The notes beneath the pieces are model-generated. The model did no database searches, had not been told where the DNA came from, and worked only from the letters and a program-made list of their open reading frames with translations. A stretch of DNA of 33,240 bases from Butyrivibrio sp. (GTDB taxonomy: Bacteria > Bacillota > Clostridia > Lachnospirales > Lachnospiraceae), in the NCBI GenBank assembly GCA_017413105.1, contig JAFPVA010000279.1, forward strand, positions 1 through 33,240. The letters run 5' to 3'. How positions within the stretch are numbered: position 1 is the stretch's first letter; every line of letters starts with the position of its first letter. A program made the translations under genes and the position numbers. Positions 15-33,240 of this stretch are shown in pieces.

Positions 15-1406
15 ATGAAGAAGATCTACGTACTGGACACCAACGTTTTGATTCAGGCACCGCATGCATTAAAGTGCTTTGAAGACAACGAGGTCGTTCT
101 TCCGCTGGTAGTCTTGGAGGAACTTGACTCACACAAGAGAGATGAGGGTGAGCGAGGCGCCAATGTGCGAGAAGCTATCAGGATTTTGGAACAGCTTCGT
201 GGAACCGGGGATTTAGTTAAGGGTATCAACCTGGATAATGGAGGATATCTGCGGGTTGAGAAGAACTTCAAGGATGTTGAGCTTCCCAAGGACATGTCAG
301 AGTACAAATCTGACAACAGAATTCTTAAGGTCTGTAAGGGGCTTAGGGATACTAGTAAGGAACAGGTAATTCTTGTAACCAAGGATATTCTGATGCGCAT
401 CAAGGCACAGATCCTGGGAGTGAAATCTGAGGACTTTACGACTGAGCAGGTGGCAGGTGAGGGCGAGCAGTACAGCGGCCGAATCGATGTCTATGCTCCC
501 GAAGAAATCTTCAAGGATTTCAAGAAAAAGGGAATTCCTGTAGATAAGGTGTATTGCTGTGATGACAATGGCAAGCAGTATGCGCCTGAGCTTTATGAAA
601 ATGAGTTTGTAGTAGTAAGAGCTGATCAGTCCACAAACAAGACCCAAATGGGGCGAGTTTGCGGTGGCTTTATCAAGAAGCTTGAGTATGAAAAGAGCCA
701 GCCCTACGGAGTAAAGCCGAGAAACGCAGGACAGTACTTCCTTCAGGAGGCACTTATGCAGCCGGCTGAGATAGCTCCTTTGGTTATTGTAAAAGGTATG
801 GCAGGAACCGCCAAAACCTTCTATTCTTTGGCGGTAGGTCTTGAAAAGATGATCAACAGACCTACCGGTGAGTACAGAAGAATTCTGGTGTGCAGACCAA
901 ACTCCCAGTTTGATGACGACATCGGATTTTTGCCCGGTGATGAGCAGGAGAAGATTTCTCCTCTTATGAGACCAATCATAGATAACCTTGAGCAGCTGAT
1001 TGACTCCAACGAGGAAGAGCGCTACAAGGATGAAAAAGAGCTTCAGGGCAAGACAGATGAGGTCTTTGAAAGAGGAATTGTTCAGTGCGAGGCACTTAAC
1101 TTTATCAGAGGACGTTCAATCCTCAAGACCTATCTCATTATTGACGAGGCCCAGAATATGACGCCTACTCAGGCTAAGGGTATCATCACCAGAGCAGGAA
1201 AGGACACAAAGATAATTCTTCTTGGTGATCCTAACCAGATTGACAGACCGTTCCTTGATGAAAGGACCAATGGTCTTTCCTATGCATCTGAGCACATGAA
1301 GGGAAGTCCTCTTGCCTGGCAGATCACACTTTCTGCTTCTGAGTGCGAGAGAAGTAAGCTGGCTATGGATGCCATCGGCAGGATGAAGGATAAAGAAGAT
1401 TTTTAA
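15..1406 (+). CDS. PhoH family protein (PIN domain plus PhoH ATPase)
   Basis: The 463-residue protein has two parts. Residues 1 to about 150 form a PIN-type nuclease domain that opens with VLDTNVLI and keeps the acidic positions typical of PIN folds (DTN, EELD, SDNRIL, VTKD). Residues from about 240 onward form a PhoH P-loop ATPase with Walker A GMAGTAKT (about 261-268), Walker B LIIDEAQN and the sensor GDPNQID. This is the YlaK-type architecture, thought from family knowledge to couple ATP-driven RNA unwinding or remodelling to ribonuclease activity; the substrate is unknown. The start is an ATG preceded by AGGGGG at the first bases of the window, so the promoter lies outside. A terminator follows. 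Cytoplasmic; no sign of damage. Confidence 0.93.
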   Translation: MKKIYVLDTNVLIQAPHALKCFEDNEVVLPLVVLEELDSHKRDEGERGANVREAIRILEQLRGTGDLVKGINLDNGGYLRVEKNFKDVELPKDMSEYKSDNRILKVCKGLRDTSKEQVILVTKDILMRIKAQILGVKSEDFTTEQVAGEGEQYSGRIDVYAPEEIFKDFKKKGIPVDKVYCCDDNGKQYAPELYENEFVVVRADQSTNKTQMGRVCGGFIKKLEYEKSQPYGVKPRNAGQYFLQEALMQPAEIAPLVIVKGMAGTAKTFYSLAVGLEKMINRPTGEYRRILVCRPNSQFDDDIGFLPGDEQEKISPLMRPIIDNLEQLIDSNEEERYKDEKELQGKTDEVFERGIVQCEALNFIRGRSILKTYLIIDEAQNMTPTQAKGIITRAGKDTKIILLGDPNQIDRPFLDERTNGLSYASEHMKGSPLAWQITLSASECERSKLAMDAIGRMKDKEDF

Positions 1407-1430
1407 AGTGAATATGTAAATATGAATTTG

Positions 1431-1466
1431 ACGGGATCATATCGCCATGATATGGTCCCGTTTTTT
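1431..1466 (+). terminator. Rho-independent terminator after the phoH-like gene
   Basis: The sequence ACGGGATCATATC pairs with GATATGGTCCCGT (one G-T pair) around a three-base loop and is followed directly by six T residues. It lies 25 bp after the stop codon. Confidence 0.9.
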
Positions 1467-1484
1467 GCACAACTCATAGGTTAA

Positions 1485-1770
1485 GATAGGGAACCAAATA
1501 TCAAGGATAAAAACATAATCTTTTGGTAATACTCATTCCCAACGGCGAGAAATAGAATGGATAGTCAATCCCATATCAAGGACACGTGCTCAAATTTTTG
1601 ATAGTATCTATTGGTTGCTGGATAGTGAACCCCATATCAAGGACATGTGTTCATGTTTATGGCAGTGTTTATGGCAGTATCTATCGTCAATGCTGATGTT
1701 GAATATGCGTCCCTATATCCGTTTCCTTCAAAAAAGATGTCGTGATTTTTTTTGCCTACGTCTTTTTGAC
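1485..1770 (+). repeat. Repeat family C, copy 1 (tandem-like units plus conserved block)
   Basis: Three related units beginning GATAG.GAAC..ATATCAAGGA occur at about 1485, 1559 and 1620; the last two are 34 bp and differ at only a few positions. The third runs into a block (about 1655-1757) that recurs at 32690-32780: GGCAGTAT, then TGCGTCCCT.TATCCG, then TTCAAAAAAGATGTCGTGAT and a T tract before GCC. If translated, the block reads RPYIRFLQKRCRDFF, nearly the same as the second copy. Here the T tract has eight T instead of seven, which shifts the frame. No function recognised. Confidence 0.7.
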
Positions 1771-1821
1771 GAATTTCATGGAAAAAGATGCATAGAATTA
1801 GGGTTTGAGCTCGAATTCAAG

Positions 1822-1873
1822 GCTAATGTTACTGCTAAAAATCTAAAAATTTGATTTTGGCAGTAATATTAGC
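1822..1873. repeat. Long imperfect inverted repeat (hairpin)
   Basis: GCTAATGTTACTGCTAAAAATC is mirrored by GATTTTGGCAGTAATATTAGC across a loop of about nine A/T bases, giving a stem of about 21 bp with a few mismatches. No T tract follows, so it is not a standard terminator. It contains TTACTG/CAGTAA, faintly like the ends of family A, but no other part of family A is present. Confidence 0.7.
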
Positions 1874-2054
1874 TGATGAAAAATTGACATCATGCAAAAA
1901 TTTGCGATTCACTGCAGCTTAAAATGCAAAAATGAAGATAAAGACGTCGAGTAATTTTATTTTGGTATCTATAATCTGAAAAACGCTAAAAAAGACGCAA
2001 TCATCGCCATAAAACGACTAGTGAATCTCTTATCACTGTGAGTATAGAGACCAA

Positions 2055-2221
2055 AGTATGAGTTCTTGGATGTGATTACAGAAATCCGCACTAGCTGCGG
2101 GTTTCGTGAGAACATGATTCAAGAGTCAACCAAGCCCTGCGACGTTAGTCGCCTTCAAATGGCTTGGTTGATACATTCTTGGATTTTATATCCAAGAATG
2201 TATGGATTTCTGACTTATACT
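2055..2221 (+). repeat. Repeat family B, copy 1 (about 167 bp, structured)
   Basis: From about GTATGAGTTCTTGGAT onward the sequence is nearly identical to 33101-33240. Proposed outer ends AGTATGAG and CTTATACT pair at 7 of 8 positions, then CAGAAATCC (2079-2087) pairs with GGATTTCTG. Inside are the hairpin CCGCA/TGCGG, a conserved unpaired core TTTCGTGAGAACATGATTC, a stem TCAACCAAGCC/GGCTTGGTTGA (2126-2171) with inner GCGAC/GTCGC, and a perfect 14-bp stem at 2171-2203. The left half is homologous to family A. I see no target duplication at these ends. Possibly a structured RNA or mobile element. Confidence 0.75.
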
Positions 2222-2283
2222 ACTAATCATGTAGTGGACGGATTTAGTTCGACTTTTAGCCAAGCTAATAATTTTAGTTATAT

Positions 2284-2325
2284 CCCCCGGATACCTTTAA
2301 TGGTTATTCGGGAGGGCTTTTTCTG
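2284..2325 (+). terminator. Possible terminator downstream of repeat B
   Basis: CCCCCGGATACC can pair, with single-base bulges, to GGTTATTCGGGAGGG across a short loop; CTTTTTCTG follows. The bulged stem makes this only a plausible terminator. If real, it implies that the repeat B region is transcribed on the plus strand. Confidence 0.4.
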
Positions 2326-2496
2326 TTAGACCCAAGAGTCTACCGTCGGGTAATAGTTATTCGTGAGGATTTCTGTCGTGGTAAACTAAATTTGGACAAT
2401 TTACCGCATTTGGAGAAAGTTGCATCATCTAGCAGATTTGAATCTCCGTCCAAAGAATATTTTTATAATTTGTTATAGTACAACCGAACTAATGTT

Positions 2497-2505
2497 TGAT
2501 ATAAT
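2497..2505 (+). promoter_or_regulatory. Extended -10 promoter element for the UvrD-like gene
   Basis: TGATATAAT is a full extended -10 element, 33 bp before the chosen ATG. No good -35 hexamer lies at the right spacing, as is common with extended -10 promoters. Confidence 0.55.
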
Positions 2506-2537
2506 GAATCTAATATTTGTTTTGATTGGGAGCTATT

Positions 2538-4706
2538 ATGGAAGAGTTATTGGATAAACTTAATGAATCGCAGAAAGAAGCTGTTACAAGTACTGAAGGC
2601 TACGTAAGAGTAATTGCCGGAGCCGGAAGTGGCAAGACAAGGGCTCTTTCATATAGATTTGCTTATCTTGTAAATGCGCTGGGAATTATGCCGGGGCATA
2701 TTCTTTGCGTTACATTTACCAATAAATCTGCCAATGAAATGAGGCAGAGAATACATCTTTTGACAGGAGATAATGACACCGGTTATATCAATACCTTCCA
2801 TGGATTCTGCGTTTCTGTATTGCAGGAAGATTCTCATGCTCTACAATATCCTAAGAGTTTCCTGGTTCTGGATAATTCAGATATAGATGACATCCTCAAG
2901 ATTATTTATGAGGAAAGAGGACTGTCATTACGAGACAAGACCTTTAGCTCTGCCAGGGATATGTTTGAAATGCGTAAATGCAAAAATGAACCGGAGTACT
3001 ACCTTGACATGCTGAACATGTCGGTAGATGCCCTTAAGGAAAAGTACGACAAGGCAGAAAATGTGGATGATATCCTGTTTTATGGATACCTTTATCAGGA
3101 AAAGAAATGTTTTGGCCTTGATTACAATGATCTCATTAAGTTTACGCTCTATATGTTTAATGAGCGTGCGGATATCAAGCTTAAGTGGCAAAAGAGGCTT
3201 GAATATATCATGATAGATGAGTTTCAGGATATTGACGGCCTTCAGTATGAGCTGATGGATGTGCTTTCTGCTTACCACAGGAATCTCTTTATTGTGGGCG
3301 ATCCGGACCAGACAATCTATACCTGGAGAGGTGCCAGTGTTGGATATTTACTGGACTTTGAGCGGGAGCATCCGAATCTTAAGACGATTTACATGAACGA
3401 TAATTACAGGTCAACTCCCCAGATACTCTCGGCATGCAATAGCTTAATAGACAAGAATACACACAGGCTCAAAAAAAATCTTGTATCCATGAAAAAAGAT
3501 GGTCAAAGTGTGCTATGTCATCTTGCCCCCAATACAGCTGATGAAGCAGACTGGATTACAGGTCAGATGCTTGTACTAAAAGGCCTGGGCGTTCCATATA
3601 AGGATATGGCGGTTCTTTACAGAGCGCACTATGTCACCAGAACAATTGAAACTGGTCTGCTAAAAGAAAAAGTCCCCTATACCATTTATTCCGGAGTTCA
3701 GTTTTACGGACGCATGGAGATAAAGGACGCACTGTGTTACCTTAGAATGATCCTGTACAGGGATGACATTTCATTTAGACGTATCGTAAATGTTCCTAAG
3801 AGAAATCTTGGAAAAAGAAGAATGGCTTTCCTGGAAGAATACTCCAGAGAAAAAGGCTGTTCTTTGTACATGGCTCTTTACGAAAATCTTGAAAATGAGA
3901 ATATCAAAGGCACAAAGGCTAAAGAGTTTATTCATATCATAGAGAAATACGCTGATAGCTACGAGGGCATGCCTGTATCGGAGCTTCTTACAAAAGTGCT
4001 TGAGGATACCGGTTATGAGCAGATGCTTCGCACAGAGGGTGCACAGGATAGATTGGATAATCTAGCAGAACTCAAACAGTCCATCTTTGAATATGAGACC
4101 ACCTGTGGTGAGGAAGTTGGACTTGAAGACTATCTAAGGCACATAGCGCTGTTTACTAATGCTGATTCTGATATAGAGGGAAGTGATAAGGTCAGGCTCA
4201 TGACTGTTCATGCCGCGAAAGGTCTCGAGTTTCCATATGTTTTCCTGTGTGGTATGAACGAAGGAATCTTTCCCTCCAAAAAAATCCATACTCTTGAAGC
4301 TATGGAGGAAGAGCGAAGACTTGCTTTTGTTGCTATGACCAGAGCCAAGGAAAGACTTTTTATCTCTGAAGCGGGCGGTCAGACATTTGAGGGAATACCA
4401 AGGTACCCGTCAAGATTCATTATGGATATTGATAGAAATCTTTTGGAATTTACCGAGACTCCTTCAGAAGAGATGATGAATGCAGTCAGTAAATATATAG
4501 AGAATGACAGCAGACATCTTAAGGGAGCGGAAAAGCTAAATCTTTTGGAAAAAGGTCAGAGAGTAGAACATGCAATTCTTGGAGCCGGAACTATCCTTGA
4601 TATCAATATGGAAGAGGAGAGCTATCTGGTTCAATTTGACGGAATGGCGACACCCAGACAGATTGCCATGAAGGTAAAACTGAAAGCGCTAGATTGTGGC
4701 TTTTGA
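2538..4706 (+). CDS. UvrD/PcrA-type superfamily I DNA helicase
   Basis: The 722-residue product carries all superfamily I motifs in order: Walker A AGAGSGKT (27-34), VTFTNKSANEM, TFHGFC, motif II MIDEFQDI, motif III VGDPDQTIYTWRGA, motif IV NYRST, motif V TVHAAKGLEFPYVF and motif VI RRLAFVAMTRAKE. A short C-terminal Tudor-like tail (EKGQRVEHAILGAGTIL) resembles that of PcrA. These proteins are 3'-5' translocases in nucleotide excision repair and fork rescue. I start at the ATG with GGGAG five bases upstream rather than at the TTG four codons earlier. The stop TGA lies inside the 8-bp target duplication of a family A element that begins three bases later, so the insertion left the reading frame intact. 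Confidence 0.93.
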   Translation: MEELLDKLNESQKEAVTSTEGYVRVIAGAGSGKTRALSYRFAYLVNALGIMPGHILCVTFTNKSANEMRQRIHLLTGDNDTGYINTFHGFCVSVLQEDSHALQYPKSFLVLDNSDIDDILKIIYEERGLSLRDKTFSSARDMFEMRKCKNEPEYYLDMLNMSVDALKEKYDKAENVDDILFYGYLYQEKKCFGLDYNDLIKFTLYMFNERADIKLKWQKRLEYIMIDEFQDIDGLQYELMDVLSAYHRNLFIVGDPDQTIYTWRGASVGYLLDFEREHPNLKTIYMNDNYRSTPQILSACNSLIDKNTHRLKKNLVSMKKDGQSVLCHLAPNTADEADWITGQMLVLKGLGVPYKDMAVLYRAHYVTRTIETGLLKEKVPYTIYSGVQFYGRMEIKDALCYLRMILYRDDISFRRIVNVPKRNLGKRRMAFLEEYSREKGCSLYMALYENLENENIKGTKAKEFIHIIEKYADSYEGMPVSELLTKVLEDTGYEQMLRTEGAQDRLDNLAELKQSIFEYETTCGEEVGLEDYLRHIALFTNADSDIEGSDKVRLMTVHAAKGLEFPYVFLCGMNEGIFPSKKIHTLEAMEEERRLAFVAMTRAKERLFISEAGGQTFEGIPRYPSRFIMDIDRNLLEFTETPSEEMMNAVSKYIENDSRHLKGAEKLNLLEKGQRVEHAILGAGTILDINMEEESYLVQFDGMATPRQIAMKVKLKALDCGF

Positions 4707-4708
4707 CA

Positions 4709-4853
4709 GTAACTGTTCAGACAGAAATGCGCACTAAACTGCGCATTTCGTGAGAACTTGATGCAAGAGTGAGCGCATTCCTTCGACGAAGTCGAATTGG
4801 AATGAATGCGCGAATTCGTTACTGGAGCGAGCTGCATGCGAGTGAACAGTAAC
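4709..4853 (+). mobile_element. Family A element, copy 1 (145 bp MITE-like)
   Basis: The 145-bp element runs from GTAACTGTTCAGACAG to GTGAACAGTAAC; its ends are 11-bp inverted repeats with one mismatch in this copy. Perfect 8-bp direct repeats TTTTGACA flank it (4701-4708 and 4854-4861), the signature of a target duplication. Inside, in order: hairpin AAATGCGCA/TGCGCATTT, the core TTTCGTGAGAAC..TGATGCAAGAGT, a stem GCGCATTCC/GGAATGaatGCGC capped by TTCGAC/GTCGAA, and an internal GTTACTG. It has no long T tract and no convincing ORF. Copies 2 and 3 are in the opposite orientation. Confidence 0.9.
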
Positions 4854-4867
4854 TTTTGACAAGTTAG

Positions 4868-5260
4868 ATTTCTTATAACTATCTTGTAGACTACCCTGCA
4901 ATTTATCCAGAGAAAAGAAATAGCGGTATCGGAAGCATGCTGATAAAGCTTCTTTCAGAGTATATAGATGGAGCGGGAAGCATTATTATAGAAGTGGAAG
5001 ATCCTGACTATGCAGAGGACGATGAAGAGAGGAAACTCAGGACCAGACGCATTGGATTTTATTTTCGCAACGGCTGTTTTGATACCGGAGTAAGAGTCAG
5101 ATGCTTTGGTGTGGTATTTATCCTACTTAAGATGGGGAATACAGAACTTGAAAAGCAGGAATGCTGGGAGATGTATTCCTCTTTTTACAGAGCTGTACTT
5201 CCAAAGGATATGTATGATGAGAATATAGAATTATTAGGGTATACGGACGAAAACACGTAA
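4868..5260 (+). pseudogene. GNAT acetyltransferase remnant (C-terminal half)
   Basis: The frame encodes YNYLVDYPAIYPEKRNSGIG followed by SMLIKLL, which matches acetyl-CoA-binding motif A of GNAT acetyltransferases (R/Q-x-x-G-x-G), and then a C-terminal region with RRIGFYFRNG and DTGVRVRCFG, typical of a Lachnospiraceae GNAT family. The N-terminal half is missing: an in-frame TAG lies at 4865-4867, and the upstream DNA is the helicase gene and the family A element. Removing the element and one target duplication puts the remnant directly after the helicase stop, so truncation came before the insertion. A 107-residue product from ATG 4937 is possible but would lack half the fold. Confidence 0.75.
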
Positions 5261-5281
5261 AGAGACATCCGATCTGAAAAA

Positions 5282-6598
5282 TCAGTCGGCGTAGGTCTGT
5301 CGTATATTATCAATTTCTGCATAGTTCTTTTCAAAAACATCTACAACAGAAGGAGAGAACTGACGACCTTTCTGATTTATGATCTCAGCCTTGGCATCCT
5401 CAGGATTCCAGGGCTCTTTATATGAACGCCTGCTGGTAAGGGCATCATACACGTCTGCAACGGCAACTATCTGGGCAACTAAAGATATTTCATCGCCCTT
5501 AAGACCTCTAGGATAGCCGGTTCCGTCCCATTTCTCATGGTGTTCGTAGGCAATGGACCTGGCCATGGTCATGATTTCTCCCTGGTTGTGAGACAGCAGA
5601 TTTTCTCCATAGGTGGAATGAGTTTTGATTATTTCATATTCTTCAGGAGTAAGTTTCCCCGGCTTTTCTATGATTTCGTTGGGAATCATCAATTTGCCGA
5701 TGTCGTGCATCATGGAAGCAATCTTTATGTAGCTGACATCGTCCTCGTTTTCTAATAGCGGTTTTGCTAAAATCGCAGTGTATTCTGAAACGCGTCTGAT
5801 GTGCTGACCGGTCTCACCGGATTTTGCTTCTGATATAGTCGCAAAATCACGGATGATGTCACTCTGGTTGTCCTGGAATTTTTTCATGTATTCGATTTTG
5901 TGGTCATGCTCTTTGGAGACTATGACATTTAGCTTGGAAAAGCTGGCGGCAAACAGGCAGCATACCACAAGAAGCATATCGAGCCAGATTTTTTGAACGT
6001 TGAGAGTACCAATCTGCAACTCGTCAAAAAAGAAATAGGCTCCATAACATATATCCATCAGAGCAAGGAGCATGAGATTGTAGAGAAGGACTGGCCACCA
6101 TTTAAGAGAATCTATATGCTGGGAAATGTACATAACATCGCTTGAATGCACCAAGACAAGTATGATGAGAGCTATGACATAAACTATTATGTAACTGATG
6201 GCATTTGTGGAGAGGATGAGCGCAAACCTGTCCTGAAGAGTAAATTCAATGTACATGGTGGCTGCGATTGCCATGTTCTCGCCTATTATTTTTGAAAAAA
6301 TGTAGATCGGTAAAATCAGTGATGCAAAGTCGCAGAGGATACTGAAGGCTATGAAAACAATGTTTGCAGTGGAAGAATTAAAGGAAAACAGACGCTGAAT
6401 GATAAACGTATTAACCGTATGGTTCAGTATTTCAGCAATCATCGAAATAATAGGGCTGGAAACGAAAAAAAGTATGAATCCACGCTTTATCTGCTCTTTA
6501 ATACTATATCTGTCCTTAATAACATTAAGAGAAAAGAGTACAAATAATAGCGATACTATAAATCTTGGCCAATAATAATTTGCTAAAACGTAGAGCAT
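5282..6598 (-). CDS. Membrane HD-GYP domain protein (putative c-di-GMP phosphodiesterase)
   Basis: The 438-residue protein starts with about seven hydrophobic segments (residues 10 to 220) that act as a membrane sensor region, then a short coiled linker and an HD-GYP domain (about 255-425). Catalytic motifs are intact: H266 in GQHIRRV, HDIGK (298-302), H327, HHEKWDGTGYPRGLKG (353-368) and D382 in AVADVYD. Family knowledge makes it a phosphodiesterase that opens c-di-GMP or related cyclic dinucleotides. No GGDEF domain is fused and no cyclase lies nearby. The start is an ATG with GCGAGG upstream. It is convergent with the GNAT remnant and divergent from the sdh operon. Confidence 0.9.
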   Translation of the reverse strand: MLYVLANYYWPRFIVSLLFVLFSLNVIKDRYSIKEQIKRGFILFFVSSPIISMIAEILNHTVNTFIIQRLFSFNSSTANIVFIAFSILCDFASLILPIYIFSKIIGENMAIAATMYIEFTLQDRFALILSTNAISYIIVYVIALIILVLVHSSDVMYISQHIDSLKWWPVLLYNLMLLALMDICYGAYFFFDELQIGTLNVQKIWLDMLLVVCCLFAASFSKLNVIVSKEHDHKIEYMKKFQDNQSDIIRDFATISEAKSGETGQHIRRVSEYTAILAKPLLENEDDVSYIKIASMMHDIGKLMIPNEIIEKPGKLTPEEYEIIKTHSTYGENLLSHNQGEIMTMARSIAYEHHEKWDGTGYPRGLKGDEISLVAQIVAVADVYDALTSRRSYKEPWNPEDAKAEIINQKGRQFSPSVVDVFEKNYAEIDNIRQTYAD

Positions 6599-10687: not shown

Positions 10688-10742
10688 CGTTATGCTGATA
10701 TTTGCAACGTGTCTATTTGCGTCATCGGTAAGAGGGAAAACT

Positions 10743-10887
10743 GTTACTGTTCACTCGCATGCAGCTCGCTCCAGTAACCAATTCGCGCATTCATTCCATA
10801 TCGACTTCGTCGAAGGAATGCGCTCACTCCTGCATCAAGTTCTCACGAAATGCGCAGCTTAGTGCGAATTTCTGTCTGAACAGTAAC
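10743..10887 (-). mobile_element. Family A element, copy 2, inserted between two feoA genes
   Basis: This 145-bp copy has perfect 11-bp ends GTTACTGTTCA/TGAACAGTAAC and is flanked by perfect 8-bp direct repeats GGAAAACT (10735-10742 and 10888-10895). It lies in the opposite orientation to copy 1, differs from it at roughly ten positions and has the same hairpins and core. It sits inside the feo operon. Because it has no T tract it need not stop transcription, but its folding could affect expression or processing of the mRNA. Confidence 0.92.
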
Positions 10888-10948
10888 GGAAAACTTACTT
10901 TTGACTCTTACTTCAAATATATAAAAAGTAGAAAAAGGGAGAAATCTG

Positions 10949-19738: not shown

Positions 19739-19883
19739 GTTACTGTTCACTCGCATGCAGCTCGCTCCAGTAACGAATTCGCGCATTCATTCCAATTCGA
19801 CTTCGTCGAAGGAATGCGCTCACTCCTGAATCACTTTCTCACGAAATGCGCAGCAGAGTGCGCATTTCTGTCTGAACAGTAAC
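19739..19883 (-). mobile_element. Family A element, copy 3, between divergent genes
   Basis: This 145-bp copy has perfect 11-bp ends GTTACTGTTCA/TGAACAGTAAC and very high identity to copies 1 and 2, in the same orientation as copy 2. The flanking 8-mers GTGTTGTC and GAGGTGCT do not match, so the target duplication has decayed or rearranged. It fills most of the space between the CPBP gene and the sortase gene and could influence both promoters. Confidence 0.9.
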
Positions 19884-24011: not shown

Positions 24012-24047
24012 TAAAAAATGTTACTGTTCAGACAGTAACTAAAAAAT
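24012..24047. mobile_element. Family A scar: 20-bp internally deleted element with target duplication
   Basis: GTTACTGTTCAGACAGTAAC (24020-24039) consists of the first 16 bases of family A joined to its last four. Both ends of the full element contain ACAG or CAG next to the junction, which suggests deletion through a short direct repeat. Perfect 8-bp copies of TAAAAAAT flank it on both sides (24012-24019 and 24040-24047), as expected of a former full-length insertion. Confidence 0.8.
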
Positions 24048-29559: not shown

Positions 29560-29579
29560 AACAACAGGAACATGAAAAC

Positions 29580-29633
29580 AAAGAGGACGGTTCTTGGTGG
29601 CATAGTTTTTTGCCACTAAGAACCGTCCTCTTT
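29580..29633. repeat. Large palindrome between convergent genes (REP-like)
   Basis: A 23-bp arm (29580-29602) starting AAAGAGGACGGTTCTT and ending GTGGCA is repeated inverted at 29611-29633 with one mismatch, around the 8-base loop TAGTTTTT. The GGACGGTTCTT core resembles palindromic repeats I recall from many Firmicutes genomes. A bidirectional terminator role is possible, but the T run after the stem is only three bases. Confidence 0.7.
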
Positions 29634-29675
29634 GTGGGGGCTAGTAAAACAATTCTTCTTGGGAGGATTGATAGT

Positions 29676-33100: not shown

Positions 33101-33240
33101 GTATGAGTTCTTGGATAAAATTACAGAAATCCGCACTTGCTGCGGGTTTCGTGAGAGCATGATTCAAGAGTCAACCAAGCCCTGCGACGTTAGTCGCCTT
33201 CAAATGGCTTGGTTGATACATTCTTGGATTTTATATCCAA
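33101..33240 (+). repeat. Repeat family B, copy 2 (cut by window end)
   Basis: From about GTATGAGTTCTTGGAT onward the sequence matches 2056-2194 with only a few differences, mostly just after the first TTCTTGGAT. All hairpins of copy 1 up to the loop of the last 14-bp stem are present; the rest lies outside the window. Confidence 0.85.

Follow-up and report, generated by a model that had tools for sequence, protein, structure and literature searches.

A mobile 145-bp element of Butyrivibrio with IS66-like ends and a conserved three-hairpin interior

The locus and the mobility of its repeats

The window (i.e., the whole stretch of DNA that was analysed, 33,240 nt long) belongs to a Butyrivibrio genome, which was assembled into 327 contigs with a total of 4.45 Mb. 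It carries three copies of a 145-bp element, which are 94–95% identical to each other in pairwise comparisons. Copy 1 (4709–4853) follows a UvrD-like helicase gene (2526–4706) and is enclosed by an exact 8-bp target duplication, TTTTGACA (4701–4708 and 4854–4861), whose left copy contains the TGA stop codon of that gene. Copy 2 (10743–10887) lies between exact duplications of GGAAAACT (10735–10742 and 10888–10895) and copy 3 (19739–19883) has no target duplication. The strand that carries the fold described below is the forward strand in copy 1 and the reverse strand in copies 2 and 3, such that copy 1 is inverted relative to the other two. A covariance model of the fold (R1) scored the three copies at 140, 134, and 142 bits, respectively, copies 1 and 2 being among the model's own sequences. 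The copies, their ends, and their flanks bear out the original prediction, which described three full copies with inverted ends, a single mismatch in copy 1 (in the end GTAACTGTTCA), and perfect 8-bp flanks on copies 1 and 2. The list of open reading frames (ORFs) contained none of at least 80 aa that overlaps any of the three copies, and 145 bp is too short for a transposase gene; the element has no coding capacity. Shortly after copy 1, the ORF at 4937–5260 may be a 5'-truncated gene; it had no Pfam match, and related DNA sits elsewhere in congeners.

The element is abundant in its own genome. At least 41 matches were found at E ≤ 0.001 (40 of the 172 first-look candidates were scored) and the 11-mer GTTACTGTTCA occurs 120 times, as opposed to once for the reversed pattern, which excludes chance as the origin of the repeat. 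One internally deleted copy of only 20 bp, GTTACTGTTCAGACAGTAAC (24020–24039, forward strand), is flanked on either side by TAAAAAAT, a perfect 8-bp duplication, and no other sequence in the genome matches this form exactly. Either it lost its interior at a later time or it represents the smallest unit that transposes. Elsewhere in the window (29578–29635), we observed a hairpin with 25-nt arms that are 96% complementary and an 8-nt loop.

We then considered 37 complete and mutually distinct copies for which both flanks were available, taken from the window and from loci collected in several species. The target duplication was a perfect 8 bp in 29 of these copies and had one mismatch in six, four mismatches in one, and seven in one. 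No exact duplication of 5, 6, 7, 9, or 10 bp was found among the 37 copies and, when left and right flanks of different copies were mispaired as a control, none of 1332 combinations was perfect and three had at most one mismatch. The duplicated 8-mers listed vary from site to site. The length of the element was 145 bp in 35 of the 37 copies (one copy of 144 bp and one of 146 bp) and ranged from about 130 to 144 bp in other genera. Seven of the 11 loci from other genera (L288–L298) had definable ends and were inspected for duplications: these were perfect in four (L289, L291, L292, and L298), had one mismatch in L288 and three in L294, and were not seen at the ends used for L290. A perfect 8-bp duplication was also found in a Roseburia metagenome-assembled genome (L185). 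Newly fetched loci add further duplications, in a set biased towards finding them because the ends were chosen there to minimise mismatches.

The 145-bp unit is short, has no transposase gene, and presents terminal inverted repeats and a duplication of fixed length. Within Butyrivibrio, it is thus a transposable element of the non-autonomous kind, which has moved recently and leaves 8-bp duplications. Recent transposition of an element of the MITE type had been proposed from the window alone, and the near-constant length and the sharp 8-bp duplication within Butyrivibrio speak for it against the variable length and missing duplications that would be expected otherwise. Empty sites in sister strains had also been suggested as a check. 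Beside the upstream gene of copy 1, the element was absent in all 11 of the best-scoring loci of sister species. Their similarity to the window extends almost to the end of the upstream gene and is lost from there on, which indicates absence at the level of the gene; clean empty sites at the level of the base were not obtained.

A second repeat family shares the fold and has other ends. The window contains one copy at 2056–2203 (forward strand; R1 121 bits, in the model), at which no 8-bp duplication was seen, and one at 33101–33240 (forward strand; 109 bits), which is cut by the end of the contig. This family is 148 bp long, has ends like GTATGAGTTCTTGGAT / ATCCAAGAATGTAT, and is represented in the genome by at least 42 near-full rows at ≥96% identity (40 candidates scored). 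In one case, a second-family copy is nested in a 145-bp element as a 144-bp insert; it shares a few bases at most with its target site, and not eight. Copies of this family sometimes adjoin further copies.

IS66-like elements with matching ends

The partner of the 145-bp element was searched for by screening the genus for the IS66 transposase domain, which was found in 27 of 61 genomes, and by inspecting the ends of 20 of the loci. These comprised four complete elements with GTTAC-type ends and four GTAAGCG-type pairs of ends, and the rest had one recognisable end or none (a broader end pattern later paired the ends in L239). The four complete IS66-like elements are from sister species, measure 2227–2237 bp, and have perfect 8-bp duplications. 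Three of them (L240 1830–4066, L242 671–2907, and L243 625–2860) have the end GTTACAGTTCAGAC, which reads GTTACAG and is thereby one base off the end of the MITE, and the fourth (L247 627–2853) begins with GTTACTGTTCAGAC, which is the usual MITE end over 14 bases. L242, L243, and L247 contain transposase ORFs of 566–568 aa, and in L240 the domain match lies in an open frame of 572 codons. The transposases of L247 and L243 match the Pfam domain DDE_Tnp_IS66 above its cut-off (1.5e-14 and 1.1e-18), and the score of the partner transposase is below the cut-off of the NCBIfam IS66 equivalog. A transposase gene bounded by the ends of the element, which the original prediction had proposed to look for, is thus present in sister species and, of the families then shortlisted (IS66, ISL3, or IS1595), these four elements support IS66.

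Typical IS66 elements have GTAAGCG-type ends and a tnpA/tnpB/tnpC layout. In contrast, the ends of the partner elements are GTTAC-NRTTCA and the two ORFs of L247 are 98 and 566 aa long. Based on their domain and their ends, these partners are members of a divergent IS66-like group. GTAAGCG ends were found on the IS66-type copies L251, L252, L254, and L255, which come from the same genome and from sister genomes.

None of the seven IS66-domain matches in the element's own genome is located on the contig of the window. This genome holds a 909-bp remnant (L043) with ends GTTACTGTTCACTGGTCAGCC, which are of the same type, no duplication, and a C-terminal transposase piece that matches DDE_Tnp_IS66 below the cut-off. 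It also holds a diverged relative of 2447 bp with ends GTTACCATTCACGG, a transposase that is 43% identical, and no duplication. An intact IS66-like element with matching ends was not found in this genome as assembled. A transposase similar to that of L247 (E ≤ 1e-20) was found in three of the 19 fold-bearing genomes examined and, among the 13 from other genera, in only one, with partial matches. This suggests that the partner has often been lost elsewhere, that different IS66-like proteins play its role, or that it resides in unassembled repeats.

In L242 (598–6794, genome G066), IS66-like ends with a duplication GAAAAAAC bound a unit of 6197 bp. Inside it lie a complete IS copy that has a duplication of its own, another transposase ORF of 568 aa, and an ORF of 451 aa for a putative further transposase. 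In L239 (contig C88 of the window's genome), two divergent IS66-like elements, GTTACCATTCACGG (1204–3650) and GTTACTATTCACGG (3663–6152), are located side by side, both without a perfect 8-bp duplication. Finally, an 88-bp element in L204 (4011–4098), with ends GTTACAATTCAG and a duplication TTTTGCAG, reads as another MITE with similar ends; the core motif described below was not found in it.

The interior fold, its distribution, and its strand

In copy 1, the forward strand presents, in order, the left terminal repeat A (GTAACTGTTCA, 4709–4719), hairpin I (ACAGAAATGCGCA...TGCGCATTTCGT, 4721–4751), a highly conserved unpaired core (GAGAACTTGATGCAAGAGT, 4752–4770), hairpin II (4773–4811), and hairpin III (4818–4853), in which an internal repeat A' (GTTACTG) pairs with the right terminal repeat A* (CAGTAAC; TGAACAGTAAC, 4843–4853). 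The same order, with the core consensus CGURAGAANNUGAUNCARGAGU between hairpins I and II, characterises the elements in general, with exceptions to the consensus such as L106. The three-hairpin model was derived from copy 1 and evaluated on two alignments. The first (A1) consists of 22 elements that were selected by eye for diversity and aligned without reference to structure, and the second (A4) of 14 elements, mostly from other genera, ten of which represent the 11 other-genus loci mentioned above (L297 was left out). Predicted pairs form in 87% of the cells of A1 and 85% of those of A4, with double changes in 23 of 34 and 23 of 32 pairs, respectively. Changes on both sides of a pair were found in 114 cells of A1 (shuffled mean 36; at most 30 when the model was slid along the alignment) and 95 cells of A4 (shuffled mean 32; at most 27 when slid). 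The sliding controls favour the model somewhat, because the structure came from copy 1. Four of five measures of covariation exceeded all 500 shuffles and the fifth did not: the measure based on further pair types was weak, and was reached by 20 of 500 shuffles in A1 and 90 of 500 in A4. One helix of hairpin II pairs in just 44% of the cells of A1. With covarying pairs beyond these controls, the interior is, on comparative grounds, a three-hairpin fold that was kept across related genera while its letters changed. The several stems and unpaired core noted in the original prediction were correctly seen, and turned out to be its important part.

In the 145-bp type, A' repeats the left end A, and both are able to pair with the right end A*. 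The A'–A* pairing fits its own element better than other elements in 18 of 26 cases with IS66-type ends and 39 of 46 with other ends. The corresponding counts for A–A* are lower (16 of 26 and 31 of 46), which points to hairpin III as the firmer constraint. The right end would be used twice: the transposase would recognise it as a terminal repeat, and within the fold it supplies the 3' arm of hairpin III. This double use would explain the resemblance of A, A', and A*.

The R1 model matched 62 of 79 genomes of the genus. In the family, which was sampled at one genome per genus with the own genome among them, it matched 31 of 200. In a sample of the class, four of 291 genomes matched, all from the own genus, and at least six other members of the family in that sample had no match. 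These genome searches used stricter filters that may miss weak matches, and the E-values of R1 are rough. Named records with the core motif were mostly from Butyrivibrio. At the Rfam gathering score, there was no match in the window and none over the element in seven loci, six of them from other genera; only sub-threshold matches with E up to 1 were obtained, and a known RNA family was discarded as a candidate on these grounds. One locus, L292, has a match to SpF66_sRNA (1921–2146) barely above the gathering score, near a tRNA. Carriage by phages or plasmids was likewise rejected, as a DNA search with copy 2 gave no match among 50,697 records of phages and 72,556 of plasmids. No description of the 145-bp element was recognised in searches of the open-licence literature. 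MITEs and structured repeats are already known; a fold that covaries across genera inside a transposon, one end of which would double as an RNA arm, had neither a threshold match in Rfam nor a recognised counterpart in those searches.

Base pairs that differ between strands were used to infer on which strand the fold might act. Across all columns, A-C pairs exceeded G-U pairs, by 85 to 61 in alignment A2 and 14 to 8 in A3; most A-C cells of A2 sit in a small number of hairpin II columns that pair badly. When only columns in which ≥75% of the sequences form a Watson-Crick pair were kept, a filter that was chosen after the all-column counts, G-U exceeded A-C by 41 to 14 in A2 (26 of 32 pairs), 7 to 1 in A1, and 8 to 3 in A4. 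With the filter fixed and rows thinned to <90% identity, the newly fetched loci gave 38 G-U against 8 A-C overall (28 of 32 pairs), 30 against 5 in other genera (28 of 32), and 4 against 3 in the Butyrivibrio part (25 of 32). The core strand was also predicted to fold more stably in 36 of 41 elements of this new set. The alignment used for these counts was fitted to the model, and binomial p-values overstate significance because the sequences are related. The preference for G-U over A-C on one strand suggests that the fold acts as RNA on the core strand.

Taken as a whole, these data are best explained, with a probability of about 0.72, by a MITE that is moved in trans by IS66-like transposases and that encloses a three-hairpin RNA-like module. 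The transposases would be those of the group with GTTAC-NRTTCA ends, leaving 8-bp duplications. The interior would be a module placed between IS66-type ends. That it arose from such an IS by plain loss of internal sequence is not supported: in the 21 loci searched around IS66-type elements, R1 gave no match at E ≤ 1. A plain MITE, whose hairpins would be kept as DNA for the transposase or for a transposition intermediate and would never act as RNA, could account for the position of the fold within transposon ends and for the inclusion of the right end in hairpin III. Moreover, single-stranded DNA tolerates G-T better than A-C. We nevertheless consider a plain MITE unlikely, because those 21 loci, including the four with matching ends, lack the fold, because the fold is also kept in the second family, whose ends differ and in which no 8-bp duplication was seen, and because double-stranded DNA does not predict an excess of G-U over A-C on one strand in well-paired columns. 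Two families with different ends and one fold constitute the best reason to think that the fold itself is kept.

Gene context and relation to known repeats

Orientation relative to the neighbouring genes, with gene calls that are crude ORF picks, differed between two sets of loci. Between co-directional genes of the first set, sense copies outnumbered antisense copies by 24 to 8 and 26 to 10. The stop codon of the upstream gene marked the beginning of 14 of 23 sense copies, as opposed to none of nine gene ends facing the right end. Copy 1 likewise begins at a stop codon. The replication set retained 66 usable matches out of 106, after 19 that had already been seen, 16 with short flanks, and five without a neighbouring gene were dropped. 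It comprised 26 sense and 18 antisense copies (10 and 12 in other genera), and the asymmetry at stop codons was reduced to 11 of 30 against 6 of 22. In the Butyrivibrio part of this set, orientation still leaned towards sense (16 to 6), but at stop codons no such lean remained (7 of 18 against 4 of 8), and the bias at stop codons was still seen in the subset without recognised IS66-type ends (8 of 15 against 1 of 10). Sense orientation and insertion at stop codons were thus rejected as a general rule, having failed to replicate on newly fetched loci. A simple scan of 4601–4960 found no promoter-like match inside copy 1 and one outside the element (shuffle mean 0.8), as well as a single terminator-like match (shuffle mean 0.2), which lies on the complement of the fold strand. 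None of the three window copies has a run of more than four T directly after its right end on the fold strand.

With its variable hairpins, the element would offer hardly any space for an internal promoter, such that the RNA would probably originate by read-through from host genes. It may act in cis in these genes and lower the cost of insertion, for instance by shielding an untranslated stretch against Rho or nucleases. The lack of replication of the sense bias weakens such a role in host mRNAs, and the proposed mechanism does not rest on orientation.

It is rather improbable that the copies are domesticated, i.e., recruited by the host as leaders, terminators, or mRNA-stability elements. The sense bias of the first set and its 14 of 23 copies at stop codons would fit recruitment, as would the replication subset without IS66-type ends. 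However, the bias did not replicate overall, no T run follows the right ends, the scan of copy 1 gave no terminator on the fold strand, and the site of copy 1 lacks the element in all 11 best-scoring sister loci. That the element is an immobile repeat spread by recombination only, as the missing duplication of copy 3 and the existence of adjacent copies (L319) might suggest, is hardly credible and is already refuted for the 145-bp form by the 8-bp duplications of 35 of 37 copies, which have one mismatch or none, and by 8-mers that differ by site.

Returning to the mobile element with an RNA-like interior, we tentatively propose a broader interpretation. An undescribed RNA fold, confined to Lachnospiraceae as sampled, might be a selfish module that rides several sets of transposon ends, IS66-like in many genera and of another type in Butyrivibrio. 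Its RNA might help insertions to be tolerated or kept, in which case the fold, and not the transposon, would be the unit under selection. The interiors of MITEs are usually regarded as filler in deletion derivatives; here the interior has a fold that compensatory changes have conserved across many genera, and the end used by the transposase would double as an RNA arm. This raises the testable question of whether non-coding mobile DNA can bring along an RNA that protects its insertions.

The 145-bp element resembles the IS66 family and IS-derived MITEs in its 8-bp duplications, its IS66-like ends, and its lack of coding capacity. It differs from IS66-type copies in its ends (GTTAC-NRTTCA instead of GTAAGCG) and in its interior, which was not found in IS loci. 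Other structured bacterial repeats, such as bcr1 of Bacillus cereus, NEMIS/Correia, ERIC, and BOX/RUP, are short, dispersed, and strongly folded, and some are MITE-like. Papers on such repeats include PMC6542083 and PMC2267715. The present element is set apart by a fold that shows compensatory changes over many genera and that is found with more than one type of ends. MITEAba12 of Acinetobacter is likewise a non-autonomous, IS-derived element, and its distribution across a bacterial family has been studied (PMC6382973). The element also marks assembly breakpoints in rumen and gut bacteria: many contigs of its own genome end inside 145-bp or 148-bp repeats, and the contig of the window itself ends inside the sister repeat.
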